Below are positions 26,005 to 43,316 of a stretch of 64,000 nt of DNA, piece after piece. Numbering within the stretch: position 1 is the stretch's first letter; every line of letters starts with the position of its first letter. The stretch spans positions 62,001 through 126,000 of the forward strand of contig CAIPAH010000004.1 in the NCBI GenBank assembly GCA_903862955.1. The letters run 5' to 3'. The notes under the pieces are model-generated. The model saw nothing but the letters and a program-made list of their open reading frames with translations. It made no database searches and was not told the origin of the DNA. The translations under genes and the position numbers were made by a program. The DNA is from an uncultured Opitutia bacterium. GTDB taxonomy: Bacteria > Verrucomicrobiota > Verrucomicrobiia > Opitutales > Opitutaceae.

Positions 26005-27105
26005 TCAGGCGAAGCGGATGGATTTCACCTCATCGACGAGGGCGAGGATGTTTTCGAACGGGACATCGGGCTCGAGGACGTGCGTCGGCGCGATCATCAC
26101 GCGGGCGGGGTGCTCGCGGCGGAGGTGCAGCGCGGCGATTTCGCGGACGCGGCGGCGGACGTCGTTGGGCGTGCCGAAGGGCATGGTGGTCTGCGTGCCG
26201 ACCATGCCGCTGAGCCCCAACTGGTCGCCGTGGCGGCGGGCGAGTTCGTTGGCGTTCATGCACTCGGGCTGCACGGGATTGAGGATGTCGACGCCGACCT
26301 CGATGAGCTCCGGGACGATCGGCATGATGTCGCCATCGGAATGGTAGTGCACCCAGACCTTGCCGCCGCGCGACGCGTCGCGGATGGCGGCGATGACCTT
26401 GGCGAGGCGGGGCTTGAGGTGCTTCCGCCACATCGGGACGGAGAGAAGCATGCCGGTCTGCATGCCGACGTCGTCGCCGAGCCCAATCACGTCGACGCCG
26501 GCCCGGGCGAACGCGCGGCCGACGTTGACGGAACGTTCGGTGAAGTAGTCGAGCAGCCAGTCGGCGATGCCGTTGCCCTCGGCGAGGTCCTGGAAGAGGT
26601 TGTCCATGCCGCGGACATACCACGCCGCCTCGAAGGCGGTGCACTCCAGCCCGGCGAAGGCGACCTTGCCGCGCGTGTGGATCTGGCGCATGCGGTGCTG
26701 GACGACGGTGTAGTGGGCCGGATCGGAGGTGTCGGGCCAGGGAAGTTTTTCGAGCTGGGCGACGCTCGTGATCTTCTCGAGCGGGTGCAGCATGGTGCGG
26801 AAGTGGTAGGCCTTGCCGAGGGTGCCCTTGGGCGGCTCGACGTGCGCGATGCAGAACGGCCCCAGCTCGACGTTGTGGGGCAGCTGGCAGCCGATTTCCG
26901 CGAGCGCGGCTTTCCAGCGCGCGGGGTCCTCGTTGTAGCCGACCCACTCGAAGCCGAAGTCCGTTTCAAACGCCAACTCCGAGTTGCGCACGCCCGTGCG
27001 CTCCTCGATCAGGTCGGCGACCGGGGGCGTGACCGGCAGGTTCAGCGGCAGCCACTCAGCACGTCCGCCGGACATCATCGCGTGGAAATTTTCGCGGGCG
27101 TTCAT
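26005..27105 (-). CDS. UroD-family (corrinoid methyltransferase-like) protein, paralog 1
   Basis: MNARENFHAMMSGGRAEWLPLNLP; VWVHYHSDGDIMPIVPELIEVGVDILNPVQPECMN; start overlaps upstream gene stop (ATGA). Confidence 0.82.
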   Translation of the reverse strand: MNARENFHAMMSGGRAEWLPLNLPVTPPVADLIEERTGVRNSELAFETDFGFEWVGYNEDPARWKAALAEIGCQLPHNVELGPFCIAHVEPPKGTLGKAYHFRTMLHPLEKITSVAQLEKLPWPDTSDPAHYTVVQHRMRQIHTRGKVAFAGLECTAFEAAWYVRGMDNLFQDLAEGNGIADWLLDYFTERSVNVGRAFARAGVDVIGLGDDVGMQTGMLLSVPMWRKHLKPRLAKVIAAIRDASRGGKVWVHYHSDGDIMPIVPELIEVGVDILNPVQPECMNANELARRHGDQLGLSGMVGTQTTMPFGTPNDVRRRVREIAALHLRREHPARVMIAPTHVLEPDVPFENILALVDEVKSIRFA

Positions 27106-27998
27106 CGCGGCAGGACCGCGGCCATGGCGGTGATGTGGGCGGGCGTCGTGCCGCAGCAGCCGCCGACCACGCGCGCGCCGGCGGCGAGGAGGCGGGGGAC
27201 GGCCGCCGCGAACTGCTCGGGCGTAACGTCGTAGGAAATGTTGCCGTTCGCGAAGCGCGGCGAGCCGGCGTTGGGCTGCACGATCACGGGACGGCCGGCA
27301 GCAGCGGCCACCAGCTCCGCGGTGAGCTTCACGTAATCCTCGAGCGAAAGTTCCGTGCCGCAGTTGGCGCCCACGACGTCCGCGCCGGCGGCGAGGACGG
27401 GCGCGAGGGCGGCCGCCACCGAATCGCCCATCATCGTGGCGAAACCCGTGGCGGATTTCTGAAAGGCAAACGTGGCGAAGACGCACCCGGCGCCGGCGGC
27501 GCGCGCCGCCTCGACGGCCAGCACGGCTTCGGCCGGGTCGGACATGGTTTCGATGAGCAGCGCATCGGCGCCGCCCTCCAGCAGCGCGGAGGCTTGCTGG
27601 CGAAAGGCGATTTTCACGTCAGCGGGATCGGCCTCGCCGTAGGGCTCGAACATGCCGCCGAACGGGCCCATGTCACCGAGCACCCACGCGCGGTCGCCCG
27701 CGACGTCGCGGGCGAGTTGGGCGGCGGCAAAATTGATTTCCCGGACCCTCGCACCCGCGCCGTGGGTGAAGAGCACGTAGGACGTGCCGCCGAAGGAATT
27801 GGTCGTGAGCAGGTCGGCGCCCGCGGCGATGTAGTTGCGGTGCACCTGGCGCACGCGGATCGGTTGCTCAAGATTCCACAGTTCCCCGCAGGCGCCGGGG
27901 GCGAGGCCGAGTTGTTGCAGCTGCGTGCCCATGGCGCCGTCGGCCAGCAGGGGCCGGCGGGCGAGGGTGGAGCGGAGCAGGGCGACGCGCGGGTTCAT
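27102..27998 (-). CDS. Homocysteine S-methyltransferase family protein
   Basis: RRPLLADGAMGTQLQQLGLAPGACGELWNLEQP...GADLLTTNSFGGTSYVL...GANCGTE...VVGGCCGTTPAHI zinc motif. Confidence 0.9.
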   Translation of the reverse strand: MNPRVALLRSTLARRPLLADGAMGTQLQQLGLAPGACGELWNLEQPIRVRQVHRNYIAAGADLLTTNSFGGTSYVLFTHGAGARVREINFAAAQLARDVAGDRAWVLGDMGPFGGMFEPYGEADPADVKIAFRQQASALLEGGADALLIETMSDPAEAVLAVEAARAAGAGCVFATFAFQKSATGFATMMGDSVAAALAPVLAAGADVVGANCGTELSLEDYVKLTAELVAAAAGRPVIVQPNAGSPRFANGNISYDVTPEQFAAAVPRLLAAGARVVGGCCGTTPAHITAMAAVLPR

Positions 27999-29080
27999 GC
28001 GGAGAGAACGTGGACCTCCTCGAGGAAGGCGGTGGCCTGGTTGGCGTTCTTGAAGGGCGTGCCCACGAGCAGCCAGACGCCGTCGGGCCCGAGTTCGCGC
28101 AACACGTGGAGCGCATCGGCGGCATCCTCGGCGAGAATCTGGACGGCCTTTCCGGCCTGGCGGCAGGTGCGATACACCTCGAGCCAATCCGAGGCGCGGC
28201 CGTGGCCGGCGCCGAAGACCCACTGGACGGCGTTGAGGCGCGGCAGGCGCAGGACCATGTCGAGGTGATGGAGCGCCTGGGGGCCGTCGAGGTGGAAGAT
28301 GGTCCGTTCCATCGGCGCCGTTTCCTGCTCCACGGCGGGGCGAATGAAATCCTCGCCGATATCCTTTGAGACGAGGCAAAGGAAGTCGCAGCTCGGAATG
28401 TACGCCGGGCCGTTGTGCAGGTAGCTGCACCACGTCGTGCAGGGCTGGCCGAGCGAGGTGAGGCGCTGGTAAACGCGGCGGTAGGCCTCGAGATACGCGC
28501 GGCTCGCGTGCGAGCAGGCGCGGCGCACGAGCTCCGGGTCGTCAATCAGGTCGAGGCAGAGATCCTCGGGCCCGCGGAGGCCCGCGAGGATGTCGTAGTT
28601 GCCATGCAGGTCGGGCTGGGCGACGTAAAACCTTCCGCCGAAGCGATCGGCGGCGAGCGCGATCATCTCCTCGATGGCCTGCCAGTAGGGATTGTTGAAG
28701 TCGGGCGGCGTCGCGATGAAGCGTTCCCAGTCGGCGAGCTCGTGCACGGTGTGCTGGCACCAGCTGGTGGACTCGCCGAAGACCAGTTCGGCGCCGAAGA
28801 GCGTGGACACCAGGTCCGGCCCGACGTTGGGGAAGAATGAGGGCACGCAGTCGCCGTAGGCGGGGTTGTGCGACAGGTGCGCGTAGGCCGACTCCACCTG
28901 AAATTTCGCGTCGAGCCAGCGATCACGGAGCGTCGCGTGGTTCGAACGCGGGGCGGACGCCGGATGCCGGGGTTCCACCCAAAGTGAAACGGGCGGGCGG
29001 TCGAGCCGCTGGCCCAGCCACCACGCGTCGTAACGGGCGCTCGCGGCGGCGAAGGAAAAGTGATGGTTGCGCTTGGCCAT
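27995..29080 (-). CDS. UroD-family protein, paralog 2 (divergent)
   Basis: RYDAWWLGQRLDRPPVSLWV...HNGPAYIPSCDFLCLVSKDIGEDFIRPAVEQE...IFHLDGPQALHHL; ATGA overlap with next gene. Confidence 0.75.
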   Translation of the reverse strand: MAKRNHHFSFAAASARYDAWWLGQRLDRPPVSLWVEPRHPASAPRSNHATLRDRWLDAKFQVESAYAHLSHNPAYGDCVPSFFPNVGPDLVSTLFGAELVFGESTSWCQHTVHELADWERFIATPPDFNNPYWQAIEEMIALAADRFGGRFYVAQPDLHGNYDILAGLRGPEDLCLDLIDDPELVRRACSHASRAYLEAYRRVYQRLTSLGQPCTTWCSYLHNGPAYIPSCDFLCLVSKDIGEDFIRPAVEQETAPMERTIFHLDGPQALHHLDMVLRLPRLNAVQWVFGAGHGRASDWLEVYRTCRQAGKAVQILAEDAADALHVLRELGPDGVWLLVGTPFKNANQATAFLEEVHVLSA

Positions 29081-29084
29081 AAGA

Positions 29085-30344
29085 TCAGACGGCGGCGCCG
29101 TTGAAGTCGCGGACGGCGTCGACCATGGCCACGATGTTGGCCACGGGCGTGCGCGCCTGGACGTTGTGGATGGTGTTGAACACGAATCCGCCGCCGGGGG
29201 AAAAGGCCTTGAGCCGCTCGGTGACCTGGGCGCGCACCTGCTCCGGCGTGCCGAAGGGGAGCGTCTGCTGCGTGTCGACGCCGCCGCCCCAGAAGACGAT
29301 GCGGCGGCCGAAATCCGCCTTGAGCCGCACGGGGTCCATGTCCTTGGCCGAGCACTGGACGGGGTTGAGGATGTCGAAGCCGACGTCGATGAACCGGTCG
29401 ATCAGCGGCCGGACGGCGCCGCAGGAGTGCTTGAAGGTCTTCCACGCCGTGTGCTTGTGCACCCAGTCGTTCACGCGGCGGTAATATGGCGCGAAGAGCT
29501 CGTCGAACGTCGCGGGTGAGCAGAACTGCGAGTTCTGCGTGCCGAAATCCGTGCCGCAGACCACCAGCACGTCGATGGTGTCGCCGGCCAGCGCGGCGTA
29601 GGTCGCGAGATTGCGCAGCGCGATCTCACACTGGTAGTCGAAGATGTGGTGGATGTAGTCGCGGCGTTCCACGAGGGAGATATACCACTCGCCGACGTCG
29701 CGGATGCCCTTGGGGTGCTTGAGGAATGCGGCGGGGACGAGGGCGATGTCGCCGAAGCCCATGCCGCCGACGCCGGAGACGATCGCCCGCTTGTCGCCGC
29801 GCACGCGCGCGAACTCGCGCTCCCAGTGCTCCACGTCGGCCGCGCTGAGCAGCTTGAATTCCTCGCAGTTGTCCGCCGGGTCGAGCTGTTCCTCGGTGAA
29901 CGGCGGCTGCCGCACGATGGCGTCAAAGAAATACCCGCCCGCCGGCATGTGCCCGCTGGCCGGCACGGAGGTGTCGCCCTCGGGGAAAAGATAGACGTCG
30001 CCCGCCGCGCTCTGGCGGGTGCGGAAGCCCGCGGGCACGAGCACAAGCTGGTTCCACGGCGTGCGCCACTCGTGCCAGCCCTCGTTGGGAAAACCAAACA
30101 TCGTGCTGCGGCCGTTGGCCGCGATGCAATCGGAGCCGAGGGCGTTTGCGAGGTCGTCCTCGACTTCGCCGAGCATCTGGAACGGCTCGCAGACCTTCAC
30201 CGGGTGCCGCGGCAAACCGTAGTGTTCCCGCAGCGCGGCGACGCAGCTGACGTGGAAGCTGGTCAGGCCGGTGCTGCCAAAGTCCACGGGCACGGGGCCG
30301 GCTTCATGCCGGAGTGCGCGACGGACTTTTTCGCGGGAGGTCAT
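29085..30344 (-). CDS. UroD-family (corrinoid methyltransferase-like) protein, paralog 3
   Basis: MTSREKVRRALRHEAGPVPVDFGSTGLTSFHVSC; FKHSCGAVRPLIDRFIDVGFDILNPVQCSAKDMDPVRLKADFGRRIVFWGG. Confidence 0.85.
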   Translation of the reverse strand: MTSREKVRRALRHEAGPVPVDFGSTGLTSFHVSCVAALREHYGLPRHPVKVCEPFQMLGEVEDDLANALGSDCIAANGRSTMFGFPNEGWHEWRTPWNQLVLVPAGFRTRQSAAGDVYLFPEGDTSVPASGHMPAGGYFFDAIVRQPPFTEEQLDPADNCEEFKLLSAADVEHWEREFARVRGDKRAIVSGVGGMGFGDIALVPAAFLKHPKGIRDVGEWYISLVERRDYIHHIFDYQCEIALRNLATYAALAGDTIDVLVVCGTDFGTQNSQFCSPATFDELFAPYYRRVNDWVHKHTAWKTFKHSCGAVRPLIDRFIDVGFDILNPVQCSAKDMDPVRLKADFGRRIVFWGGGVDTQQTLPFGTPEQVRAQVTERLKAFSPGGGFVFNTIHNVQARTPVANIVAMVDAVRDFNGAAV

Positions 30345-30367
30345 GGGGTTTGGCCGTGGGGCGGCAT

Positions 30368-31498
30368 TCAACCGCGCATCCCGAACAGCTCCTCCTTCAG
30401 GTTGAGATAATACAGGTAATCGTCCGGATCGACGTTGGGCGGGCACCGGTGGTCGCAGAAGGGGATGAAGCCGCCGGCGGCGACGTAGGGGACGAGCGAC
30501 CCGACCCACTGGCGGATCGCGGCGCGGCCGCGGCCGAGGGCCATCTTGTCCACGCCGCCCATGATGCGCAGTTCCGGGCCCCAGCGGTCGAGCGACTCGC
30601 CCGGATGGCCGGAACCGTTGACTTCCCACGGGAACATCGTGTTCACGCCGCCGGCGAGAAAATGCGGGATCAGCGGGCGGACGTCGCCGTCGCAGTCGAT
30701 CCACCAGATGTCCACGCCGTGCGCGCGGAGCTTCGTGCTGATGCGCTTGTAGCGCGGCACGACGACGTCGCGGAAGAAGCCCACGGAGACGAGCGGCCCG
30801 CTCTTGTAGCAGATGTCCTCCCAGCCGGCGGCGTAGTCGAACGCGACGTGCGGCAGCACGGCATCGAGGAAGTCTTCCACCAGGACGCAGGACGTCTCGA
30901 CGATGTCCTCGACCATCTCGGGGTAGTCGAACACGGCATACGCCAGGCCTTCGACGGTGAGCATGTCGCGCACCTTGCCGATCATGGAGCCGCACCAGAC
31001 GCCGAGCGGATAGTCGCGGTTGGCGGGGTGGTCGCGCAGGATGGCGGCAATGTCGGCCTTGCGGTCGGGGTGACGGCGGTCGAAGCGCTCCTCCTTCACG
31101 CGCTTCCAGTCGTCGGGCGTCTTGACGCTCGAGTCGAGGAAGTGGGGGATCGTGTCGTGGCCGTCCATCGGCACCTCGGCGATGAGGCCGTCACCGTTGC
31201 GCAGGACGCGCGTGGTCGCGGTGCGGGAAATCTCCTCGTAAGGGAAGGTCGGGTGCATCCAGTGCGACCCGACCACCGCGGTGCGGTCGAAATTCAGGAA
31301 GATGTCGGCGTCGTTGTTGTTGGTGATGCCGTGGTCACGGAACATCGGCCAGAGCTTGAAGTTGTCGTCCCAGTACCCGAATTCCATGTTGAAGCACCGG
31401 TCCACCGGCTGGCGGTGCATCTGGCGCTGGAAACGGGCGCGGTCGGTGAGCGAGCCGCGCCACTTGGGCAGGAAGGGGGTGATGGCCGGGGTGGACAT
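30368..31498 (-). CDS. UroD-family (corrinoid methyltransferase-like) protein, paralog 4
   Basis: RARFQRQMHRQPVDRCFNMEFGYWDDNF; DIWWIDCDGDVRPLIPHFLAGGVNTMFPWEVNG. Confidence 0.82.
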   Translation of the reverse strand: MSTPAITPFLPKWRGSLTDRARFQRQMHRQPVDRCFNMEFGYWDDNFKLWPMFRDHGITNNNDADIFLNFDRTAVVGSHWMHPTFPYEEISRTATTRVLRNGDGLIAEVPMDGHDTIPHFLDSSVKTPDDWKRVKEERFDRRHPDRKADIAAILRDHPANRDYPLGVWCGSMIGKVRDMLTVEGLAYAVFDYPEMVEDIVETSCVLVEDFLDAVLPHVAFDYAAGWEDICYKSGPLVSVGFFRDVVVPRYKRISTKLRAHGVDIWWIDCDGDVRPLIPHFLAGGVNTMFPWEVNGSGHPGESLDRWGPELRIMGGVDKMALGRGRAAIRQWVGSLVPYVAAGGFIPFCDHRCPPNVDPDDYLYYLNLKEELFGMRG

Positions 31499-31503: not shown

Positions 31504-32589
31504 TCAGTAGTTCCCGTAACGGTCGATGAAGCCGATGATGGCGCGGTAGGTGTCCCAGCTGACCTGGGGAGGCACGGAGTGATCGGAGTGGTAGGCATAA
31601 CCGCGCGTGGCCATGCCGGCGGCGAACTTCGTGCGGATTTCCTCCTCGATGAGCGGGAGGTTGTTCGTCGCCATCTTCATGACGTCGATGTTGCCGAACA
31701 TGGCGAGGCGGTCGCCGTACGTGGGCGCGAACTGGCGGATGTCCATGCCCGCCTTGGCCTCGATGGGCTGGAGGCAGTCGAAGCCGGCGGCGATGTAGAG
31801 GTCGAGGACGCCGCTGACGCGTCCGTCCGTGTGATAAATGACGCGCATGTCCCGCGCGTGCGCCCATTCGGCCATGCGCTTGTGCTGCGGCCAGACGAAC
31901 TCGCGATACATGGCGGGCGAGCAAATCGTGGCGTGGTTGTAGGCCATGTCGCCGTAGATCCAGAGGCCGTCGGGCTTGATGCCCTCGGCCAGGACGGCGT
32001 CGAAGGTGCGGAGCACCACATCGGTATGCACCTGGACGATGTCGCGCACCCAGTCGGGATCCTCGATCATGGCGACCAGGAAGGCCTCGTCACCGATCTG
32101 TTTGCGCAGGGCTTCGAAGCCTTCGACCCCGCTCAGAAACGTCCACCGCCCGAGCTGGCGGCCCTTCTGGTAGCGCAGCGCGGAGAGCTTCGGATTCACC
32201 TGCAGCGGGGCGGCCAGCAGGGCGGGGCGGTAGATCTTATCCCAGGCCGCGCGGGAATCGCAGCCGAAACCCACGTGCTCCGGCGTGCCGGAGCGGCCCT
32301 TCCAATACCGGACCACGCCGCCCCAGGCGTCGCGGTAGGTTTCGGTCTCGGTATCCTGTGTGATCAGCTCTTTCTGCTGTGGAAATGGCGCAGGCCAGGA
32401 CCAGCAGAGCGGCTGGAAGTCACTCTGCAGGAAGAGCAGCGCATCCTCGTGGTCCCAGAGGAGACCTTCGCGTTGCCAGCGGGTGATCGTCTCAGGCCAG
32501 AAGGTGTCGCACCGCGGGATGCGGTCCTGGTCCTGCCGCGCGAACATGCGATTGACGCGTTCGCACCCGGTCATGGCAGTGGAAATCAT
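31504..32589 (-). CDS. UroD-family (corrinoid methyltransferase-like) protein, paralog 5
   Basis: GCERVNRMFARQDQDRIPRCDTFWPETITRW; MRVIYHTDGRVSGVLDLYIAAGFDCLQPIEAKAGMDIRQFAPTYGDRLAMFGNIDV. Confidence 0.85.
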   Translation of the reverse strand: MISTAMTGCERVNRMFARQDQDRIPRCDTFWPETITRWQREGLLWDHEDALLFLQSDFQPLCWSWPAPFPQQKELITQDTETETYRDAWGGVVRYWKGRSGTPEHVGFGCDSRAAWDKIYRPALLAAPLQVNPKLSALRYQKGRQLGRWTFLSGVEGFEALRKQIGDEAFLVAMIEDPDWVRDIVQVHTDVVLRTFDAVLAEGIKPDGLWIYGDMAYNHATICSPAMYREFVWPQHKRMAEWAHARDMRVIYHTDGRVSGVLDLYIAAGFDCLQPIEAKAGMDIRQFAPTYGDRLAMFGNIDVMKMATNNLPLIEEEIRTKFAAGMATRGYAYHSDHSVPPQVSWDTYRAIIGFIDRYGNY

Positions 32590-32627: not shown

Positions 32628-33263
32628 TTAAGCCGCCTGACCCACGAGTTTCTTGGCGATGTCGACGGCCGTGCCGGCGTCGGCGGCGTAGCCGTCGGCC
32701 CCGATCTCATCCGCGAAAGCCTGGGTGATCGGCGCGCCGCCGACCATGATCTTGGTGCTGAGCCCCGCCGCCTTGAGAATCCGGACGGTGTCCTTCATCG
32801 CGGGCATCGTGGTCGTCAGCAGGGCGGACAGGCCAACGAGGTTGGCGTTGTGTTCCTTCGCGGCAGCCAGGTACTTGTCGGCGCTCACGTTGGTGCCCAG
32901 GTCGATGACGGCGAAGTTCGCCCCGCGCCACATCATGGAAATCAGGTTCTTGCCGATGTCGTGGAGGTCGCCCTGCACGGTGCCGATGATAGCGGTGTAT
33001 TTCGGCTTGATGCCCGCGCTGGCCAGCAGCGGCTCGAGGAGCTTCAGGGCCTCCTTCATCGCGCGCGCGGCGACGAGCATCTCCGGGACGAAGATCTCGT
33101 TTTTCTTAAACTGCTCACCGACAATCGCCATCCCGGGGACCAGCCCCTTTTCGACGATGTCTTGCGGGGCAGAGCCAGCCGCGAGGAGTTCCTGGGTGAG
33201 TCGCACGGTGTCGGTCCGCTTACCTGCGGCCACGGCGGCGGTCAGTTCGGATAATTGGGGCAT
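32628..33263 (-). CDS. Corrinoid (cobalamin-binding) methyltransferase corrinoid protein, MtxC type
   Basis: N-terminal cap (KGLVPGMAIVGEQFKKNEIFVPEMLVAARAM) and B12-binding GTVQGDLHDIGKNLISMM (DxHxxG), VGLSALLTTTMPAM, GGAPIT. Confidence 0.95.
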   Translation of the reverse strand: MPQLSELTAAVAAGKRTDTVRLTQELLAAGSAPQDIVEKGLVPGMAIVGEQFKKNEIFVPEMLVAARAMKEALKLLEPLLASAGIKPKYTAIIGTVQGDLHDIGKNLISMMWRGANFAVIDLGTNVSADKYLAAAKEHNANLVGLSALLTTTMPAMKDTVRILKAAGLSTKIMVGGAPITQAFADEIGADGYAADAGTAVDIAKKLVGQAA

Positions 33264-33518: not shown

Positions 33519-35147
33519 GTGAACCCGCGTCTCAAGCTCGAAACGCCCGATGGCCCCGTCGAGGTGGGCGTCAGCGGCACGGACGCCCGCCTGCCACTCT
33601 CCGAGCTGCTGGCCCACCGGGGGCATCCGCTCAACACCCGTTGCGGCGGCCGCGGGCTCTGCGGCGGCTGCGAGGTCGGGCTGCGCGCCGGCACGCTGCA
33701 GCGTCCGGACGGCACGACCGTCGGTCCCGGTCCCGACGACCGGCTGCGCTCCTGCCAGCTGCGGCTGACGGGCAAGGATGACGTGACGGTGACTTTGCCC
33801 GCGCGGTCGCTGCTGAGGCACGAGCCGGCGATCGTGGCGGAGTTCAAGATCAATGTGCCGTGGGCGCACGACCCACTCGACCCCGACGCTCGGATCGGCG
33901 CGTCGGTGGACGTGGGCACCACCACGGTGGCGCTGTTGCTGTCCGACCTGAAGACCGGCAAAGTGCTCAGCGAGGCGTCGGCGTTCAATGCGCAGATCCG
34001 TTTCGGCGAGGACGTGCTTACGCGCATCCAGATGTGCAGCCAGGGACCCGCGGCGGTGCAGCAGCTGCAGCGGGCGGTGGCGGTGGAGACGATCCAGCCC
34101 CTTTTGGCCGAGGCGTGCCAGGAAGCCGGCGTGGCCCTGGGCGACGTCGGCGTAATGACCGTCGCGGCCAACACCACGATGCAGCACCTGTTAGCGGGTG
34201 TGGACCCGAGTCCCCTCGGCGTGCATCCGTTCAGGGCGGTTTTTCTCGATCATCGCGTCTATGCGCCGAAGGAACTCGGCCTGGACTTTGGCGGCGCCCA
34301 GGCGAAGGTTCACCTGTTGCCTGGACCGGCTGCCTACGTCGGCGCGGACCTCGCGGCGGGGCTGGTGGCGACGGGCATGCTTTACGACGAGGGCCCCGTG
34401 CTGCTCGTGGATGTGGGCACCAACGGCGAGATTATCGCCAAGGTCGGCGATCGCCTCGTGGGCTGCGCGACGGCGGCGGGGCCGGCGTTCGAGGGCGCGG
34501 GACTTTCCAGCGGGACCCGCGGGGTGAAAGGCGCCATCGAGCGCATTCGGCTGGAGGCGGCCCCGTTTCACGCGGAGCTGGGCATAATCGGCGGCGCGGC
34601 CAAGCCGATCGGCATCTGCGGCTCGGCCTACGTCGATTTCCTCTGGGAGGGGCGGCGGACTGGCATCGTGCAGGCGAACGGACGTTTCTCCGAGGACTTC
34701 ATCGCCAGCGCCGGGTCGCGCGTGCAGGCGGACGAGTATGGGCGCAAGCTCCAGCTCTGCGCGCACGGAACGTCGGGGCCGGTGTGGGTCTCGGAGGTGG
34801 ACATTGCGCGCCTGCTCCAGGCCAAGGCGGCGATCGCCGCCGGCATCAACACCCTGCTGGGCCTGCTGGGCGTGGCGGCGGCGGACGTGAAGACGCTCTA
34901 CCTCGCGGGCGGCTTCGGCATGCACCTTTCGCTCGACCATGCCATCGGCTGCGGCCTGCTCCCGGGTTTCACGCCGGCGCAGATCCACGTCGTGGGCAAC
35001 ACCTCGCTCGGCGGCGCGTTCCTCGCGCTCAATGACCGCAACCTGCTCGCGGAAATGTCGGGCGCCTGCGCGCGCCTGGAATCGATCGAACTCAACCTGC
35101 AGCCCGGCTTCGAAGACGCCTACATCGACCAACTGATGCTGCCCTGA
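33519..35147 (+). CDS. RACo/RamA-type corrinoid reductive activator ([2Fe-2S] ferredoxin + ASKHA/DUF4445)
   Basis: NTRCGGRGLCGGCEVGL ferredoxin-type Cys cluster; ASVDVGTTTVALLLSDLKTGKVL; LLVDVGTNGEIIAK; LYLAGGFGMHL. Confidence 0.92.
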   Translation: MNPRLKLETPDGPVEVGVSGTDARLPLSELLAHRGHPLNTRCGGRGLCGGCEVGLRAGTLQRPDGTTVGPGPDDRLRSCQLRLTGKDDVTVTLPARSLLRHEPAIVAEFKINVPWAHDPLDPDARIGASVDVGTTTVALLLSDLKTGKVLSEASAFNAQIRFGEDVLTRIQMCSQGPAAVQQLQRAVAVETIQPLLAEACQEAGVALGDVGVMTVAANTTMQHLLAGVDPSPLGVHPFRAVFLDHRVYAPKELGLDFGGAQAKVHLLPGPAAYVGADLAAGLVATGMLYDEGPVLLVDVGTNGEIIAKVGDRLVGCATAAGPAFEGAGLSSGTRGVKGAIERIRLEAAPFHAELGIIGGAAKPIGICGSAYVDFLWEGRRTGIVQANGRFSEDFIASAGSRVQADEYGRKLQLCAHGTSGPVWVSEVDIARLLQAKAAIAAGINTLLGLLGVAAADVKTLYLAGGFGMHLSLDHAIGCGLLPGFTPAQIHVVGNTSLGGAFLALNDRNLLAEMSGACARLESIELNLQPGFEDAYIDQLMLP

Positions 35148-36187: not shown

Positions 36188-36189
36188 CC

Positions 36190-37470
36190 ATGCCCGCCCC
36201 CGTCGCAGCGCCTTCCGTTTTCCCGGTCCATGCCGCGGACCGCGACATCCTGCGCGGCCTCGCCGAGCAGGTCGCCGTCATCGCGGCCCTGCCGGTGCAG
36301 CGTGAGAAGGCGGAGCTCTGGCGTCGCATGAACGACCTGAAGTCGGTCCGGCCGATGATCTGGATCACGGAAGCGCCGTGGCACGAGTTCAGCGCGGACA
36401 CCGACGAGTTGAAGGTCCAGTGCCGCGCCCCGTGGGCCCGCGAGCTCGAGGTGGAGCTGCGCCGCACGCTTTACCAGTGGCGGCACCTGCCGGTGGACAT
36501 GATCGTCAGCGACTACCTGCCGTGCCCCATCAGCTGGCGCACGACCGGCTTCGGCATCCTGCGCCAGGGCGAACTACTCAACATCACCGACGGCGGCATC
36601 AGCTCGCAGCATTTTGAGCCGCAGATCACCTGCCTAAAGGACGTCGCGAAGATCAAGGATCCCGTCGTGACCGTGGACCGCGCGGAGACCACCGCGCGCC
36701 TGGCCGCGATGAACGAGGTGTTCGGCGGCGTCATGCCCGTGCGCGAGCAAAAGCGGGACAACTACTGGTTCACGCCGTGGGACAACCTCGTGATGTGGTA
36801 TGGCGTGCAAGAGGCGCTGATGGACCTGATCGAGCAGCCGGAAGTGATCAACGCCGCGGTGGACCGCATCGTGGAGTGTTGCCTGAAAGAACTCGACCAG
36901 ATGGAGGCGCTGAACCTCCTCGCGCTGAACACGACGAACTGCCGCATCGGTTCCGGCGCGTATGGCTACTCGAGCGAGCTGCCGAAGGCCGGCTTCAATC
37001 CGGACCATCCGACGGCGGGGCATCTCTGGGGCTGTTCCAACGCCCAGATTTTCACCGAGGTCTCGCCCGAGATGCACTGGGAGTTCGCGTTGCGGCACGA
37101 CGTGCCGTGGCTCAAGCGCTGGGGGCTGGTTTACTACGGCTGCTGCGAGGTGCTGGACACCAAAATGGAAATCCTCCGCCGCATCCCGAACCTGCGGAAG
37201 GTGTCGATGAACTATCGCATCAACGTCGAGCGCGGCGCGAAGGCGGTCGGCGCCGACTACGTTTTCAGTTACAAACCGAACCCCGCGCATTTCGCCACCG
37301 ACGGCTGGGACCTGCCGAAGGCGCGGGACGAGCTGAAGCACATGCTCGACTGCACGCGCGGCGGGCACGTGGAGATCGTGCTGAAGGACATCTCGACCGT
37401 GGCCCGGAAGCCCCAGCGCCTCTGGGAATGGGCCGCGATGGCAAGCGAACTCGTGGAGGGCCGGGGATGA
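36190..37470 (+). CDS. Large UroD-like protein (trimethylamine corrinoid protein 2-like annotation class), paralog 7
   Basis: RPMIWITEAPWHEF...WGCSNAQIFTEVSPEMHWEFALRHDVPWLKRWGLVYYGCCEVLDTKMEILRRIPNLRKVS; start 2 bp after previous stop. Confidence 0.7.
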   Translation: MPAPVAAPSVFPVHAADRDILRGLAEQVAVIAALPVQREKAELWRRMNDLKSVRPMIWITEAPWHEFSADTDELKVQCRAPWARELEVELRRTLYQWRHLPVDMIVSDYLPCPISWRTTGFGILRQGELLNITDGGISSQHFEPQITCLKDVAKIKDPVVTVDRAETTARLAAMNEVFGGVMPVREQKRDNYWFTPWDNLVMWYGVQEALMDLIEQPEVINAAVDRIVECCLKELDQMEALNLLALNTTNCRIGSGAYGYSSELPKAGFNPDHPTAGHLWGCSNAQIFTEVSPEMHWEFALRHDVPWLKRWGLVYYGCCEVLDTKMEILRRIPNLRKVSMNYRINVERGAKAVGADYVFSYKPNPAHFATDGWDLPKARDELKHMLDCTRGGHVEIVLKDISTVARKPQRLWEWAAMASELVEGRG

Positions 37471-37484: not shown

Positions 37485-38531
37485 CTACCGCTTCGCCCCG
37501 AACTCCCCGGGCTTGTGCTCGCGGGCGTAGGCGAGCATGGCGCGAACGTTTTCCGGCGGAGTGAGCGGCGAGAGTTCGCAGCCGGCGCCGACGATGAAGT
37601 ATTGGCCGCAGGTTTCGTGGCAGCGCCGGCACGCCTCGTAGACCTTCTCCGGGGTGCCCTCGAGCAGGTCGGTGATGGTCGAGACGTTGCCTGCAAGCGT
37701 GCGGGTGGGCCCGAGCTTCTCGCGCGCGAGGGCGAGGTTGGCGGGAAAATCGATTTCGTAGATGTCCACGGGCAGCTCGGCCATCTTCGGGTAGAGCTTG
37801 TCAATGCGCCCGCACATGTGCTGCCGCAGGAGGACGTCGGGGTGGTGGCGCTTGATCGTCTCGAGGACGCGGCGCTGTTGGGGCCACAGGAACTCCTCGT
37901 AGAGCACGGGTCCGATCAATCCCGCGGCGGCATCGCTCATGCCCATCGTGTCGGCGCCAGCCGCGATCTGGGCGGGAGCGTAGGCGATCGCCACGTCGGC
38001 GCAGAACGCCAGCAGGTCGTGCGCGAACTGCGGGTCGTCACCGAAATCCAACATGATGGTGTTCAGGCCGCGCAGCTCGGCGGCGAGCGCGAGCGGGCCC
38101 TCGATCCAGCCGACGATCGACATGCCGGGACCGGCGGTGCGGCGCATCAGCTCGATGCTTTTCACGCGGTCATGCATGCGGCCGCCATTGAGCGGGTCGG
38201 GCACCTTGAAGGACCGCAGCCGGAGCTTGTCCGCCAGCGCGGCGCGCTCCTCGTTGATCGCCGGCCCCTGGTCAGTGAACCAGTCCACGCTGCCGTCGCC
38301 GGCGATGTCGATGACCTCGCGCGCGGGGTCGGAGCAAGTGAGCAGGCAATCAAGCCCGAAGTCCGCGACGAGCTTCAGCTGCGCCTCGGCCATCTTCCGG
38401 CCATCTTTCGTGTAGTCGATGAACGGGATGCCGGCGTGCTTGGAGGAAAACATCATCGCCATCGGCTGCGCCGCCAGATGGTCCACCGGTTCGCCGCGGA
38501 TCGTGCGGCGCACTCGTTCGATCGAGGTCAT
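37485..38531 (-). CDS. UroD-family methyltransferase with canonical HxC...C zinc-type motif (MtaA/MtbA-like), paralog 8
   Basis: MTSIERVRRTIRGEPVDHLAAQP; LLRQHMCGRIDKLYPKM ... YFIVGAGCELSPLTPPENVRAM. Confidence 0.88.
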   Translation of the reverse strand: MTSIERVRRTIRGEPVDHLAAQPMAMMFSSKHAGIPFIDYTKDGRKMAEAQLKLVADFGLDCLLTCSDPAREVIDIAGDGSVDWFTDQGPAINEERAALADKLRLRSFKVPDPLNGGRMHDRVKSIELMRRTAGPGMSIVGWIEGPLALAAELRGLNTIMLDFGDDPQFAHDLLAFCADVAIAYAPAQIAAGADTMGMSDAAAGLIGPVLYEEFLWPQQRRVLETIKRHHPDVLLRQHMCGRIDKLYPKMAELPVDIYEIDFPANLALAREKLGPTRTLAGNVSTITDLLEGTPEKVYEACRRCHETCGQYFIVGAGCELSPLTPPENVRAMLAYAREHKPGEFGAKR

Positions 38532-38602
38532 CCCAGCGTGATGCGGGCGCCCCGGCCCGAAATCAACCCCGCGCTGCCGGCAACTTTGCGCATTTTTTGT
38601 CC

Positions 38603-39766
38603 ATGAAGCCCATGACGTCCCGCCAGCGCCTCGTCGCCGCCCTCGACCGCCAGCCCCTCGACCGGCTGCCGGTCACCACGCACCACCTGATGCGTTCCTA
38701 CATGGAACGGCACTTCCCGGGGAAGCCCGACGCGGCATTTTTCGCGGAGTTCGGGCTCGACCCGATCTGCTGGGTCCAGGCCCACCGGCCCGACACGGCG
38801 GCGGGCGCGACCTACGAGCCAGGCCAGATTTGCGGTTTTCTCGAGGCGCAGCGCATCGTCTCGCCCACGTGGCGCTTCGAGCACCAGGACGTCCCGGGCC
38901 GCGAATACGCCACCACGCGCCACGCCATCGTCACGCCGCGCAAGACGCTGACGATCGAGCTGCAGAGCAACCAGTTCACCGCGTGGGTCTCCGAGCGGCT
39001 GCTCAAGGAGAAGTCCGACATCGACCTCATCGCGGAGTTTGCCCCGCAGCCGCTTTGCGACGTGGCCGCGATCAACCGCCAGTCCGACGCCTGCGGCGAC
39101 CACACGCTCTGCCGGGGCAACATCAACTGCTTCGAGCTCTACGGGCAGCCCGGTTGCTGGCAGGACGCCTGCGTGCTCTACGGCGTCGAGGAGATGATCC
39201 TCGCCACCTTCGACGACCCGGAGTGGGTCCACACTTTCCTCGGCATCCTGCGCGACCGGAAAGTGCGGTTCGCCGACTCGATGAAGGGCGCGCGTTACGA
39301 CCTCATAGAGCACGGTGGCGGCGACGCCTCCTCAACGGTCATCTCGCCCAAGGTGTTTGAGGAATTCGTCGCGCCCTACGACCGCGAGGTCATCGCGCAC
39401 GCCCGCGCCGCCGGCCAGCGCGTCGTCTACCACACCTGCGGTGGCATGATGCCGATCCTGGAACGACTCGTCACGCTGGGCTCCAACGCGCTCGAGACGT
39501 TCACGCCGCCGGCGATGGGCGGCGACATGGACCTGGCGGAGGCGAAACGCCGGATCGGCGACAAGGTCTGCTTCATCGGCGGCTTCGACCAGAACCGCTT
39601 CTTCACCACCGCGACGCCCGAGGAGACGCGCGCCGAGGTGCGCCGCTGCTTCCGCGAAGCGGGGGCGGGCGGCGGCCTAATTCTGAGTCCCTCGGATCAC
39701 TTCTTCGAGGCGAAGCCCGAACTCCTGCACGCCTTCGCCGACGAGGCGCACCGCTGCACCTACTGA
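38603..39766 (+). CDS. UroD-family (corrinoid methyltransferase-like) protein, paralog 9
   Basis: MTSRQRLVAALDRQPLDRLPVTTHHLM; RVVYHTCGGMMPILERLVTLGSNALETFTPPAMGGDMDLAEAKRRIGDKVCFIGG. Confidence 0.86.
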   Translation: MKPMTSRQRLVAALDRQPLDRLPVTTHHLMRSYMERHFPGKPDAAFFAEFGLDPICWVQAHRPDTAAGATYEPGQICGFLEAQRIVSPTWRFEHQDVPGREYATTRHAIVTPRKTLTIELQSNQFTAWVSERLLKEKSDIDLIAEFAPQPLCDVAAINRQSDACGDHTLCRGNINCFELYGQPGCWQDACVLYGVEEMILATFDDPEWVHTFLGILRDRKVRFADSMKGARYDLIEHGGGDASSTVISPKVFEEFVAPYDREVIAHARAAGQRVVYHTCGGMMPILERLVTLGSNALETFTPPAMGGDMDLAEAKRRIGDKVCFIGGFDQNRFFTTATPEETRAEVRRCFREAGAGGGLILSPSDHFFEAKPELLHAFADEAHRCTY

Positions 39767-39789
39767 TTTTTCCCGCCAACCCTTTTATC

Positions 39790-40917
39790 ATGAACCCGCT
39801 CGATCGCTTCCATGCCTGCATGAATTACCAGCCCGTTGACCGCGTGCCCAACCACGAGGTCGGCGTCTGGGTCCAGACCAAGCAGCGCTGGCGGGACGAA
39901 GGCCTCGCGACCGACGACCTGCACTGGGACTGGTTCACCGGCGAGCCGCTGTGGGACCTGGACCCGCGCGAGTATATCGACGTGAACACGGCCATGGTGC
40001 CGCCATTCGAGGTGAAGGTCATCAGCCGAGACGGCGAGACGGAAACCATCCGGGGCGCCAACGGCGTCACGACCAAGGGCCTCATCACCGGCATGGCCGA
40101 AGGCATGCGCATGAGCATGGACGAGTTCATCGCCTTTCCCGTGAGCACGCCGGCGGATTTCCAGGAACTGAAGCACCGTTTTCGCCCGTCGTGTCCCGTG
40201 CGCTATCCGCAGCACTGGCGGGAGTTCCTGCTGCCCGGCTGGGGCCGGCGGCAGCATCCGCTGATCCTCGGGCGCAACTGCGCGATCCTCGGCTATTACT
40301 GGCGGGCGCGGGAGTGGATGGGCACCGAAAACGTGAGCTACGCCTGGTATGACGAGCCCGCGATGATGCACGAGATGATGGAGTTCATCACCGACTTCAC
40401 CATCGAGACCGTGCGGCCGATCCTCGAGACGGGCGTGAAGCCGGACTACGTTTTCATCAACGAGGACCTGAGCATGAAGAACGGCCCGCTGCTCAGCCCG
40501 GATTGCTACCGCGAGTTCATCCTGCCGGAGCTGAAGAAGCTCGTCGCCTTCCTCAAGTCGCACGGCGTGCGCTGGGTGGTGATCGACACGGACGGCAACT
40601 GCGAGCTGGTGATCCCGCCGTTCATGGAAGCCGGCGTGGACGGTATCTGGCCGATGGAGCGCGCGTCCGACATGGATCCGCTCGCCCTGCGCAAGAAATA
40701 CGGCCGCGACCTGCGGCTGTGGGGCGGGGTGGACAAGCGGGAGCTGGCGAAGGACTTCGCCGCGATCGACGCGCACCTGCGCACCTTCCAGCCGCTGATC
40801 GCCGAGGGCGGCTTCATCCCGTCGGTGGACCACCTCGTGCCGCCGGACGTGTCGCTCGCGAACTTCCGCCATTACATGAAACGCAAGCAGCAGCTCCTCC
40901 GCGGGGAGGGGTTCTAA
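39790..40917 (+). CDS. UroD-family (corrinoid methyltransferase-like) protein, paralog 10
   Basis: MNPLDRFHACMNYQPVDRVPNHEVGVW; VRWVVIDTDGNCELVIPPFMEAGVDGIWPMERASDMDPLALRKKYGRDLRLWGGVDK. Confidence 0.85.
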   Translation: MNPLDRFHACMNYQPVDRVPNHEVGVWVQTKQRWRDEGLATDDLHWDWFTGEPLWDLDPREYIDVNTAMVPPFEVKVISRDGETETIRGANGVTTKGLITGMAEGMRMSMDEFIAFPVSTPADFQELKHRFRPSCPVRYPQHWREFLLPGWGRRQHPLILGRNCAILGYYWRAREWMGTENVSYAWYDEPAMMHEMMEFITDFTIETVRPILETGVKPDYVFINEDLSMKNGPLLSPDCYREFILPELKKLVAFLKSHGVRWVVIDTDGNCELVIPPFMEAGVDGIWPMERASDMDPLALRKKYGRDLRLWGGVDKRELAKDFAAIDAHLRTFQPLIAEGGFIPSVDHLVPPDVSLANFRHYMKRKQQLLRGEGF

Positions 40918-40932
40918 GAACCGACCGGATCT

Positions 40933-41022
40933 CCCGCGAATGCACGCGAACTGTCACGAATCCAGAGCTGGGACAGGTGTGCTTGTCCTGAGCTTCGCGA
41001 CCATTCGCGCGGATTCGCGGGC
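40933..41022. repeat. Intergenic inverted repeat, family C (CCCGCGAATGCACGCGAA ... TTCGCGCGGATTCGCGGG)
   Basis: imperfect inverted arms ~20 bp. Confidence 0.7.
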
Positions 41023-41040
41023 ACCCAAACACCCCTCTTC

Positions 41041-42087
41041 ATGAGCCGACAACTTGCCCTCGACACCATTGCGCTGAAGCCGGTCGACCGGTTTGCGCGC
41101 ACGGAATACAGCCTGGAATACCACCAGGCCGGGCTGCATCGCGTCGCGGGACCGGAGCCGGACACGAATGCGGCGGTGCGCGGCCTCTACGCGCACTGGG
41201 GGCTGGATTTTCTCTGGACGGTGGAGGACGGCCTGACGGGCGACTGGGCGAAGCTGGGCCGCTGCACCGACATGGGCCATGCCGAGTATGCGCAGGGCGG
41301 CACTGACATGCGCCCGCCGCAGCACTGCCCGTTTGAGAAAGTCGAGGAAGTCTGGGCCTTCGATGCCGTGAAGGAATACGGCCTGCCGACGATGACCGAG
41401 CAGGTGGCGGCGTATGAATCGTGGCATCAGCAAAAGCGCCGCGACTTTCCCGACCAGCTCTGCACCGGCGGCTATTACAAGACCATCGTCTCCGGCGCGA
41501 TCCAGGCCTTCGGCTGGGACATGCTGCTCGAGGCGGCGGCGGACCGGGACAAGATGGAAAAGGTCTTCGACAGCTTTTTCCGCCGGACGAAGTTCCACAT
41601 GGACGCGTGGGCGCAGACGAGCGTGGAGGCCGTGATCCAGCACGATGACTTCGTCTGGACCGCCGGCGCGTTCATGCGGCCGGAGATCTACCGCTCGGTC
41701 ATCATCCCGCGCTACGCCGAGCTGTGGAAGCCGCTCAAGCGCGCAGGCAAGAAGGTGCTGTTCTGCTCCGACGGCGACTTCCGCGAGTTCGCGGGCGACA
41801 TTGTCGCAGCTGGGGCCGACGGGCTGATCTTCGAACCGGTGATGGAATTCGGCGAGATGGTGGAAAAGTTTGGTTCGGGTACCGCGCTGGTCGGCAGCGC
41901 GGTCGACTGCCGGGACCTGACCTTCGGCACCTGGGACACGGTGCGCGCCACCCTCGAGCGGACGCTCGAACTCGCGCGGCACTGCCGCGGCGTGATCCTC
42001 GCCACGGGCAATCACCTGCCCGCCAATATTCCCGCGCCCATCCTCGAGCAATACCGCGCCTACCTGCAGGCGCACCGGAATCGCTGA
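41041..42087 (+). CDS. UroD-family (corrinoid methyltransferase-like) protein, paralog 11
   Basis: MSRQLALDTIALKPVDRFARTEYSLEYH; KKVLFCSDGDFREFAGDIVAAGADGLIFEPVMEFGEMVEKFG. Confidence 0.82.
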   Translation: MSRQLALDTIALKPVDRFARTEYSLEYHQAGLHRVAGPEPDTNAAVRGLYAHWGLDFLWTVEDGLTGDWAKLGRCTDMGHAEYAQGGTDMRPPQHCPFEKVEEVWAFDAVKEYGLPTMTEQVAAYESWHQQKRRDFPDQLCTGGYYKTIVSGAIQAFGWDMLLEAAADRDKMEKVFDSFFRRTKFHMDAWAQTSVEAVIQHDDFVWTAGAFMRPEIYRSVIIPRYAELWKPLKRAGKKVLFCSDGDFREFAGDIVAAGADGLIFEPVMEFGEMVEKFGSGTALVGSAVDCRDLTFGTWDTVRATLERTLELARHCRGVILATGNHLPANIPAPILEQYRAYLQAHRNR

Positions 42088-42092
42088 TTTTT

Positions 42093-42181
42093 TCACGCAA
42101 AGTCGCCAAGCCGCGAAGACCGAGCCATCCCTCATTCCCGCCCTCAAAATCCAAACTTTGCGCCTTAGCGGCTTTGCGTGA
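42093..42181. repeat. Intergenic inverted repeat (TCACGCAAAGTCGCCAAGCCGCGAAG ... CTTTGCGCCTTAGCGGCTTTGCGTGA)
   Basis: imperfect inverted arms between paralogs 11 and 12. Confidence 0.7.
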
Positions 42182-42194
42182 ACCCCAAAAACCC

Positions 42195-43316
42195 ATGCGC
42201 TGGAACCGCGAACAGTATCTCGACCTGATGACCTTTGGCCCCGCCCCGCGGCCGATGTTCACCGAACTCTTCGGCCCGCTCGTCGGGTTGGACGCCGAGT
42301 GGCGCGCGCAGGGCGCGACGGAACTCGAGATCGGCATGACGGCCTTCGACTGGGATTACGTGCCCACGGTCTTCTGCGGCGGGTACACGCACCTGCAGGG
42401 CCCGCCGTCAGTGGTGCTCGAGGACACGCCCGACCTCCGCCGCGAGCGGGACTGCCTCGGCCGCGAGATGCTCCTGCTGAAAAAGACCGCGACGATCCCT
42501 CTGCCGATGAATTTCCCGGTGCAGACGATGGACGACTGGCTGCGCGTGAAGCATTTCTACACGTTCAAGCCCGACCGGATCAAATGGGACGAGGTTGAAG
42601 CCGCCCGCCGCGCGCAGGCCGAGGGCGCGGTCGTCGTGGCCCATATGCCCGGGGCGTTCGACACGCCGCGCGACCTGATGGGCGAGGAGATCGCGTGCCT
42701 CGCGTATTACGAGCAACCCGAGCTGATGGCGGACATTGTGGCCACAATCGCGGACACGACGATGCGCGTGCTCGAGCCGATCAGCGAAAAGCTGCACATC
42801 GACCAGCTGATGGTGCACGAGGATTTCGCCGGCAAATCCGGTCCCCTGATCGGGCCGGTGCAAATCGCGGAGTATTTCAAGCCCTACTACCGCCGGGTCT
42901 GGAACCTCGTGTCGTCCCGCGGGGCGCGCATTTTCGAGCAGGACACCGACGGCAACATCAACCCCGTCATCCCGGCGCTGCTCGATACGGGCCTCACCAG
43001 CATCTACCCGATGGAGCCGGCGGCCGGCATGGATATCGTGGCGGTACGGGAGACCTACGGTCAGCGGCTGGCGATGCGCGGGGGGATCGACAAGCACGTG
43101 TTGCGCGAGGGCCGCCCGGCCATTCGCCGCGAACTTGAGCGCAAGCTCCTCGATCCCGGCTTGCGGGCCGGCGGGTGTGTCTTCGGGCTCGACCATCGCA
43201 TTCCCAACGGCACGCCGATCGCGGACTACCGTTACTACGTCGAACTCGGCCGCGAGCTGCTCAACCTGCCGCCGATGGACCCGGCTCGGACCGGCTGGGC
43301 CCGCATGGCGATGTAG
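42195..43316 (+). CDS. UroD-family (corrinoid methyltransferase-like) protein, paralog 12
   Basis: MRWNREQYLDLMTFGPAPRPMFTELFG; RIFEQDTDGNINPVIPALLDTGLTSIYPMEPAAGMDIVAVRETYGQRLAMRGGIDK. Confidence 0.84.
   Translation: MRWNREQYLDLMTFGPAPRPMFTELFGPLVGLDAEWRAQGATELEIGMTAFDWDYVPTVFCGGYTHLQGPPSVVLEDTPDLRRERDCLGREMLLLKKTATIPLPMNFPVQTMDDWLRVKHFYTFKPDRIKWDEVEAARRAQAEGAVVVAHMPGAFDTPRDLMGEEIACLAYYEQPELMADIVATIADTTMRVLEPISEKLHIDQLMVHEDFAGKSGPLIGPVQIAEYFKPYYRRVWNLVSSRGARIFEQDTDGNINPVIPALLDTGLTSIYPMEPAAGMDIVAVRETYGQRLAMRGGIDKHVLREGRPAIRRELERKLLDPGLRAGGCVFGLDHRIPNGTPIADYRYYVELGRELLNLPPMDPARTGWARMAM

Follow-up and report, generated by a model that had tools for sequence, protein, structure and literature searches.

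Twelve divergent UroD-type proteins and one corrinoid protein in an ancient gene cassette of a lake bacterium of the Opitutaceae

Several known methyl-transfer systems are relevant here. The O-demethylase systems (Odm, Vdm, Mtv, and Mto) combine a UroD-family MT1, a corrinoid protein, the activase RACE, and a methyl-corrinoid:THF/H4MPT transferase. In them, each corrinoid protein serves one or two MT1s; one MtoC is common to MtoB1 and MtoB2 (PMC8630106), and the corrinoid protein gene has 20 homologues in Desulfitobacterium hafniense (PMC3306737). MtqC of Eubacterium limosum is proven to serve several MT1s (MtpB, MtcB, and MtyB) and is unloaded by one MT2 (PMC8604678). The type 1 mlp clusters (type 1 MGCs) contain several UroD-family paralogues of distinct old lineages along with one corrinoid protein and one activase (Ram or RACE; PMC10418091). 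The chloromethane methyltransferase CdmB is another UroD-fold MT1 with a corrinoid protein and an MT2 (PMC13222342), and MtaA and MtbA are methylcobalamin:CoM methyltransferases of the same fold.

The window (64,000 nucleotides of contig CAIPAH010000004.1) comes from a lake bacterium of the Opitutaceae in which an ancient cassette encodes twelve UroD-type enzymes, highly dissimilar to each other, and one corrinoid protein (Table 1; we refer to genes by their lower coordinate). All twelve open reading frames listed by an earlier, sequence-only reading were found, each with exactly the motif that it quoted. The array flanks the corrinoid protein and the activase on both sides, and these two genes are divergent. 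As in the O-demethylase systems, MT1 candidates, corrinoid protein, activase, and a methyl-corrinoid:THF transferase are encoded together. In contrast to those systems, the genome combines one corrinoid protein with 12 clustered and at least 16 scattered UroD genes (Pfam-positive satellites, besides HemE). Also in contrast to them, we detected no CODH/ACS: a genome-wide search for CdhC (PF03598) gave no match, so this marker of Wood-Ljungdahl acetogenesis was not found. We propose that several substrate-specific MT1s share one corrinoid protein, as with MtqC. However, the MtqC system involves the MttB superfamily, quaternary amines, and three demonstrated MT1s in separate clusters, whereas here we have the UroD superfamily in one dense array. 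Type 1 mlp clusters have two or three Mlps with His-Cys-Cys (H-C-C) sites and no THF methylase nearby, while the array has mostly carboxylate/His sites and an MT2. In a literature search, we found no paper combining these elements.

Table 1. Genes of the array and its neighbourhood, with motifs and putative ligand residues or the domain matches behind each annotation
Feature	Coordinates	Strand	Motif and putative ligands, or domain evidence
Methylene-tetrahydrofolate reductase with MetV-type C-terminal domain	18353..20110	+	PF02219 + PF12225
Methyl-tetrahydrofolate:corrinoid protein methyltransferase (MT2, AcsE/MtrH-like)	20189..21055	+	PF00809, PRK07535
Formate-tetrahydrofolate ligase (FTHFS)	21095..22780	+	NF010030, 919.7 bits vs. 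cut-off 652
Homocysteine S-methyltransferase/methylene-THF reductase fusion	23266..25227	+	PF02574 + PF02219
DUF6580 membrane protein	25389..25958	-	PF20221
UroD-family MT1 candidate 26005	26005-27105	-	HSDG; H255-D257-H342
Stand-alone homocysteine S-methyltransferase domain	27102..27998	-	PF02574; within array operon
Divergent UroD-fold protein 27995	27995-29080	-	HLDG; H263-x-D265
UroD-family MT1 candidate 29085	29085-30344	-	HSCG; H306-C308-H393
UroD-family MT1 candidate 30368	30368-31498	-	IDCDG; D268-D270-H350 (C269 is a spacer)
UroD-family MT1 candidate 31504	31504-32589	-	HTDG; H253-D255-H337
Corrinoid (B12) carrier protein, MtbC/MtgC-like	32628..33263	-	PF02310 + PF02607
RACE/RACo-type ATP-dependent reductive activase	33519..35147	+	PF14574, PF17651
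UroD-family MT1 candidate 35159	35159-36187	+	HSDG; H234-D236, third probably C314 (or C310)
Divergent UroD-fold protein 36190	36190-37470	+	YGCCE: Y-G-C318-C319-E320; D400
MtaA-like UroD-family enzyme 37485	37485-38531	-	HMCG; H238-C240-C318; predicted thiol/thioether-type transferase
UroD-family MT1 candidate 38603	38603-39766	+	HTCG; H277-C279-H366
UroD-family MT1 candidate 39790	39790-40917	+	IDTDGN; D266-D268-H348
UroD-family MT1 candidate 41041	41041-42087	+	CSDG; C242-D244, N324/H325 at third position
UroD-family MT1 candidate 42195	42195-43316	+	QDTDGN; D250-D252-H334

Ten of the twelve proteins can be placed in the UroD superfamily by sequence and the other two by predicted fold. Nine score above the cut-off of Pfam's URO-D model (37485 matches PF01208 with E = 5.6e-57), and 30368, which falls slightly under it (21.9 vs. 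23.9 bits), gives 100% in hhalign to 39790, 42195, and 31504. Because 27995 and 36190 had no significant hhalign match to other array members (nor any Pfam match), we modelled them with AlphaFold. The AF2 models (pLDDT 78 and pTM 0.81 for 27995; pLDDT 76 and pTM 0.80 for 36190) matched UroD/MtaA (E = 7.5e-9) and UroD (E = 3.8e-5), respectively, in Foldseek; all matches with E ≤ 0.001 were to UroD or MtaA, except for one MetE (for 27995). A sequence search of the PDB with profiles of 27995, 36190, and 39790 gave no matches. None of the twelve proteins reached the NCBIfam cut-offs for MtaA, MtbA, or mtaA_cmuA (the best was 37485, at 145.9 vs. 235.4 bits).

The likeness to MtaA and MtbA extends to the positions of the metal site. 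When 37485 is aligned to MtaA (PDB 4ay7; E = 1.9e-21), all three zinc ligands are matched, and in a direct alignment of 26005 to the same structure, its H-D-H triad falls on the zinc ligands. Among the ten alignable proteins, the glycine of the motif is in register in nearly all pairwise hhalign comparisons, and the ligand columns coincide in one joint alignment that includes the satellite UroD proteins. As judged from these alignments, the ten proteins align with each other and, via MtaA, with the MtaA zinc site. Nine of them have Cys or His at the third position, and in the tenth this position is displaced by one residue; the third ligand of 38603 also moves by one residue in one alignment. 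In the models of 27995 and 36190, the motif strand is the fourth from the C-terminus. The His-x-Asp of 27995 lies at the end of this strand, with no third ligand evident; in 36190, Cys-Cys-Glu lies at its end and D400 comes after the last strand.

The sequence-only reading had equated the motifs by eye, and this holds for the ten by alignment and for 27995 and 36190 only by strand order in the models. It recognised two of the three metal positions and overlooked the third (Cys in MtaA). The diversity that it saw is real, but its twelve strings come down to only about six ligand sets: H-C-C, H-C-H, H-D-H, H-D-C, D-D-H, and C-D-H. The strings combine ligands with spacer residues, so HSDG, HLDG, and HTDG would be one chemistry. 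Similarly, 30368, 39790, and 42195 are a single D-x-D subfamily in one clade, and 29085 and 38603 have the H-C-H set. Only 37485 has the His-x-Cys...Cys zinc site, and because the site differs in the nine other alignable members, the MtaA/MtbA label does not fit them by this feature either.

The motif string is kept within each group of orthologues (10-24 genomes; 42195 was assessable in five), and each ligand set is invariant among orthologues. Invariant His, Cys, or Asp columns account for just 4-9% of each array protein, and all twelve genes are under purifying selection (dN/dS of 0.12-0.31), so the motifs are conserved more than expected by chance. In this superfamily, H-C-C sites are associated with S-methyl transfer, and substitution by a carboxylate is associated with O-methyl transfer (PMC10418091). 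By this rule, 37485 would be the array's sole thiol-type site and most of the others would be oxygen-type, and the roughly six ligand sets suggest different metal chemistries among the paralogues. Because the UroD-type relative CdmB functions without zinc (PMC13222342), a ligand-like triad is not proof of metal dependence.

In a phylogenetic tree, ten groups form clades of their own (support of 97-100). Furthermore, gene order is shared across the Opitutaceae: 11 other genomes contain these genes, and their order and orientation nearly always agree, with small variations. This bears out the proposal of old functional diversification instead of recent duplication; for ten of the twelve proteins, the motifs are equivalent in position and the proteins do not form one recent clade. 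The tree rejects recent lineage-specific duplication, the exception being a tandem copy of 30368 in L004. Three of the ten clades extend to Planctomycetota or Armatimonadota: the 31504 clade is common to both, and 26005 has an orthologue in Armatimonadota. The most widely retained member is 29085; it and 39790 are the main ones that remain in minimal clusters. Sets of corrinoid protein and UroD genes recur in Planctomycetota and Armatimonadota, and genes for the corrinoid protein, MT2, MetV, FTHFS, and UroD proteins cluster together independently in L038 and L079.

Searches of the genome found no stand-alone corrinoid protein besides 32628 (the other B12-binding_2 domain lies in MetH), no reductive activase besides 33519, and no pterin-binding domain outside MetH besides 20189. 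(32628 is not above the cut-off of any NCBIfam corrinoid-protein model.) One of each, against 12 array and 16 satellite UroD genes, argues for a hub. Across 80 Opitutaceae genomes, at least two UroD genes are present in 34 of 35 genomes with a stand-alone corrinoid protein and in 3 of 45 without (Fisher p = 6e-18, uncorrected for phylogeny). Within three pairs of genomes from the same genus (G000/G014, G020/G059, and G035/G065), UroD genes and the stand-alone corrinoid protein are both present or both absent. Several members of the family have a different corrinoid protein, roughly 50% identical, and the corrinoid protein of the array might not serve all twelve proteins. Among the folate genes, the counterpart of 18353 adjoins the array in two genomes of the same genus. 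The DUF6580 gene is also conserved beside the array. An Rfam scan near the array for cobalamin or SAM riboswitches returned only a tRNA.

We propose, with a probability of roughly 70%, that the array works as a hub-and-adaptor system for demethylation, consisting mostly of O-demethylases plus one predicted thiol-type enzyme. RACE, powered by ATP and low-potential electrons, would reduce the one corrinoid protein to Co(I). At the end of its TIM barrel, each UroD-fold protein would bind a methyl donor of its own, and a bound metal (with two of its ligands following the motif strand and the third following the last strand) would activate the leaving heteroatom. Every one of them would dock the same corrinoid protein, and Co(I) would take the methyl group; we infer that each is an active MT1 and binds a metal. 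MT2 would then unload methyl-Co(III) onto tetrahydrofolate, and the folate-bound methyl would probably be oxidised via methylene-THF reductase towards formate by FTHFS. Alternatively, the methyl group could pass to homocysteine via the operon's own homocysteine methyltransferase. The predicted donors are a thiol or thioether for H-C-C and oxygen donors, such as methoxy groups, for H-D-H, D-D-H, and C-D-H; H-C-H would be intermediate between the two types. More tentatively, about 28 UroD-type demethylases, including the twelve of the ancient cassette, might all depend on the single corrinoid protein as their obligate hub. The bacterium could then demethylate a wide range of O-methyl compounds (carbohydrates, aromatics, or both) without acetogenesis, and the substrate class could be read from a three-residue metal-ligand code.

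A rival reading is that the array carries out methionine/selenium salvage like that of type 1 mlp clusters, in which the UroD proteins would move methyl groups among S- or Se-compounds with homocysteine as the acceptor and little would reach folate. Such clusters also have several UroD-family proteins, one corrinoid protein, and one activase; 27102 lies in the array operon, genes of its type accompany that of the corrinoid protein in many relatives, and 37485 is H-C-C. However, type 1 Mlps are almost always His-Cys-Cys, as is just one of the twelve proteins here. Also, type 1 clusters are defined as at least two Mlps, a corrinoid protein, and Ram in one direction with no THF methylase within 20 kb, and the array falls outside this definition because RACE and the corrinoid protein are divergent and MT2 is about 12 kb from the corrinoid protein. 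We therefore consider salvage quite unlikely.

It is also unlikely that only a few members (29085, 39790, 31504, and 37485) are methyltransferases and that the rest drifted to other UroD-fold reactions or became non-catalytic partners. 27995 and 36190 cannot be recognised by sequence and have incomplete or different ligand sets, and the short list of genes that remain in minimal clusters fits this idea, but purifying selection acts on all twelve genes, and all remain with the hub across the clade. Furthermore, relatives of the two divergent proteins adjoin a corrinoid protein: that of 27995 in L044 (Armatimonadota) and a distant one of 36190 in L025 (Spartobacteria). Very improbable is the same hub-and-adaptor chemistry with metal-free sites acting on haloalkanes or other small methyl donors. 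The precedent is the zinc-free CdmB (PDB 9rui; PMC13222342), but its cavity is aromatic and hydrophobic, whereas 10 of the 12 array proteins retain polar residues that could hold a metal where MtaA has its ligands; CdmB has only a weak N-terminal match to 37485.

After the array come genes for a GDSL esterase, a heparinase-like protein, a sugar MFS transporter, an enolase-superfamily protein, and an aldo/keto protein. Satellite UroD genes have a sugar ABC transporter (L093), a heparinase-like protein (L087), or Gfo/Idh oxidoreductases (L082, L084, and L093) as neighbours. Relatives from the same genus retain only the GDSL, Mpo1-like, 49311, enolase-like, and trehalase genes at that end of the array, and G020 retains none. 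Because so few of these genes are kept, we do not claim sugars as the substrate.

Each corrinoid protein of the known demethylation systems works with one or a few MT1s, and this conserved array has twelve old and highly divergent paralogues around a single one. The array offers a natural panel for asking how the ligand set of a UroD-fold site decides the methyl donor and what number of partners can dock to one corrinoid protein. It further suggests that Verrucomicrobiota have a capacity for anaerobic demethylation that the papers searched do not report.

All twelve reading frames that the sequence-only reading had placed at 26005-43316 were found as described, with their motif strings. (Array members are named here by their low coordinate.) The source genome (3.6 Mb in 31 contigs) has its nearest named relatives among Opitutaceae MAGs, with corrinoid proteins (CP) up to 92% identical. 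On the minus strand, CP is followed by 31504, 30368, 29085, 27995, a homocysteine methyltransferase gene (27102), and 26005, and because the gaps are at most 38 bases or are small overlaps, this run is probably one operon. The reductive activase (RACE/RACo), 35159, and 36190 lie on the plus strand, opposite to this run; 37485 is a lone minus-strand gene, after which come the plus-strand genes 38603, 39790, 41041, and 42195. The 18-26 kb stretch of the window, some 12 kb from CP, carries folate/C1 genes (for a MetV-type methylene-THF reductase, the methyl-THF:corrinoid transferase MT2, FTHFS, and a homocysteine methyltransferase/MTHFR fusion) together with DUF6580. The DUF6580 membrane protein is retained beside the array in several genomes and is possibly involved in transport.

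Features of the array and its surroundings, with the putative ligand sets of the array members
Feature	Position in the window	Strand	Remark
Corrinoid protein (CP)	32628-33263	minus	flanked by twelve UroD-family genes
RACE/RACo activase	33519-35147	plus	divergent from CP
Homocysteine methyltransferase gene	27102-27998	minus	near array
Homocysteine methyltransferase gene	23266-25227		near array
DUF6580 membrane protein	25389-25958		
Ligand set H-C-C	37485		
Ligand set H-C-H	29085, 38603		
Ligand set H-D-H	26005, 31504		
Ligand set H-D-C	35159		C probable
Ligand set D-D-H	30368, 39790, 42195		
Ligand set C-D-(N/H)	41041		

Nine of the twelve array members pass the Pfam URO-D cut-off, and 30368 falls just under it. 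For 27995 and 36190, neither the URO-D search nor profile searches of solved structures by sequence gave a match. AlphaFold models of these two proteins, built on their orthologues (pTM 0.81 and 0.80), matched almost exclusively UroD and MtaA structures in Foldseek (best E = 7.5e-9 and 3.8e-5), with moderate TM-scores (about 0.6 and 0.5) that represent a match of fold, not a residue-level superposition. By the curated MtaA/MtbA models, the array proteins do not qualify as MtaA or MtbA.

The motifs had been proposed to occupy the position of the zinc-ligand HxC of MtaA/MtbA. For 10 of the 12 this equivalence was borne out: the motif glycine is in register in pairwise profile alignments (with probabilities nearly always high among close groups), and a joint alignment with HemE and the satellites (UroD genes of this genome outside the array) gave the same motif columns. 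When aligned to MtaA (4ay7), the H, C, and distal C of 37485 and H255, D257, and H342 of 26005 fall on zinc ligands. We take the MtaA ligands to be His237, Cys239, and Cys316, which agrees with the 4ay7 alignment if the crystallised chain bears a nine-residue tag. The motif strings had caught two ligand positions and did not include the third, which is H in 26005, 29085, 30368, 31504, 38603, 39790, and 42195, C in 37485, probably C in 35159, and N with an adjoining H in 41041 (its placement in 38603, 42195, and 35159 moves slightly with the reference chosen). The putative ligand residues are invariant inside each orthologue group, whereas just 4-9% of the positions in each protein are invariant H, C, or D. 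Judging from the topology of the models, HLDG of 27995 and YGCCE of 36190 appear to close the strand fourth from the C-terminus, which is the rank inferred for HMCG in 37485. The satellites have a ligand palette much like the array's in the joint alignment.

The sequence-only reading took the spread of motifs as a sign of functional diversification, not recent duplication. In eleven other Opitutaceae genomes, we found 11 or 12 of the array genes with order and orientation kept, except that the end is altered in locus L005 and 30368 is duplicated in L004, where its orthologue stands in tandem within the array (10823-14036). Identity is mostly 50-90% inside orthologue groups versus 13-25% between groups (relative to the first array member), and dN/dS is 0.12-0.31. 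In a quick tree search without bootstraps, in which some long branches are unsure and the group clades are robust, ten groups each form a single clade (SH-aLRT 97-100), and those of 31504, 29085, and 26005 take in sequences from Planctomycetota and/or Armatimonadota. Part of the motif spread belongs to one subfamily, as the three D-x-D members (30368, 39790, and 42195) and 31504 form a larger clade. The observation is confirmed, and the separate clades and shared layout support old diversification over recent duplication, with these corrections.

The array is patchy: of the 286 genomes sampled from the class, just 2 have a close match to 39790, and the array is absent from a genome of the same genus (G014). 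In small clusters at L017, L021, and L023, 29085 and 39790 are the sole UroD genes beside CP (RACE was seen in L017 and L021); these two genes with CP are a possible minimal core. One satellite (L091:6910-8025) is close to 42195 (596.9 bits), and its nearest relative, a copy at L005:15378-16691, takes the place expected for 26005 at the far end of that locus's array; a gene move is likely.

The genome encodes a single stand-alone corrinoid protein (MetH contains the genome's remaining B12-binding_2 domain), one RACo, and one pterin-binding transferase besides MetH, which is MT2; CdhC was not found in the genome. Its 26 Pfam URO-D genes are HemE, nine array genes, and sixteen satellites, all but one of which are on contigs other than the array's. 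Adding 30368, 27995, and 36190 brings the non-HemE UroD genes to 28. Of 80 Opitutaceae genomes, 35 have a stand-alone CP, and 34 of these carry at least two UroD genes, compared with 3 of the 45 that lack such a CP (this comparison ignores kinship, and counts in rich genomes are at least ~22). In three same-genus pairs, CP and UroD genes are both present or both absent. At independent loci from other phyla, CP occurs together with UroD, MT2, MetV, and FTHFS (L038 and L079) or with relatives of 31504, 30368, 26005, and 27995 (L044).

At L083:6832-9704, another satellite stands immediately upstream of the gene for a second MetV-type methylene-THF reductase; L015 contains a relative of this satellite along with a MetV-like gene. 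At L082:7678-12068, also in the source genome, four UroD-family genes stand in a row, two of them with H-C-C; a Gfo/Idh-aldo/keto reductase fusion lies ~5 kb upstream of them. The source genome, which is rated 100% complete, has one Pterin_bind domain in MetH, one in MT2, and no others, and FolP (dihydropteroate synthase) was not found in it. Its MetH frame (on contig C9) is only 928 amino acids long, and some relatives exceed 1200; MetH's homocysteine domain might come from the separate homocysteine methyltransferase genes close to the array, as in a split methionine synthase.

By analogy with the Mto/Odm/Vdm demethylation systems (PMC8630106), our model for the array, each UroD protein would methylate Co(I)-CP; RACE would re-reduce CP; MT2 would form methyl-THF; and MetV/MetF and FTHFS would carry the methyl group towards formate, as CODH/ACS was not found in the genome. 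Homocysteine methyltransferase may draw off methyl groups for methionine. MtqC is a proven case of one CP used by several substrate methyltransferases (MT1) (PMC8604678). A published rule for the UroD superfamily (PMC10418091) links His-Cys-Cys to S-methyl transfer, and a carboxylate or the loss of ligands to O-methyl transfer; by this rule, 37485 would be thiol-type and most other members oxygen-type. CdmB is a zinc-free UroD-type case (PMC13222342), so ligand-like residues alone are no proof of metal binding in the array. Carbohydrate genes lie near the array and near several satellites, and the sugar-related neighbours of the array are mostly not kept beyond the genus. The array probably represents UroD-type demethylation, which is already known as a kind; unusual here are the size and age of the set of putative adaptors that would share one corrinoid hub.
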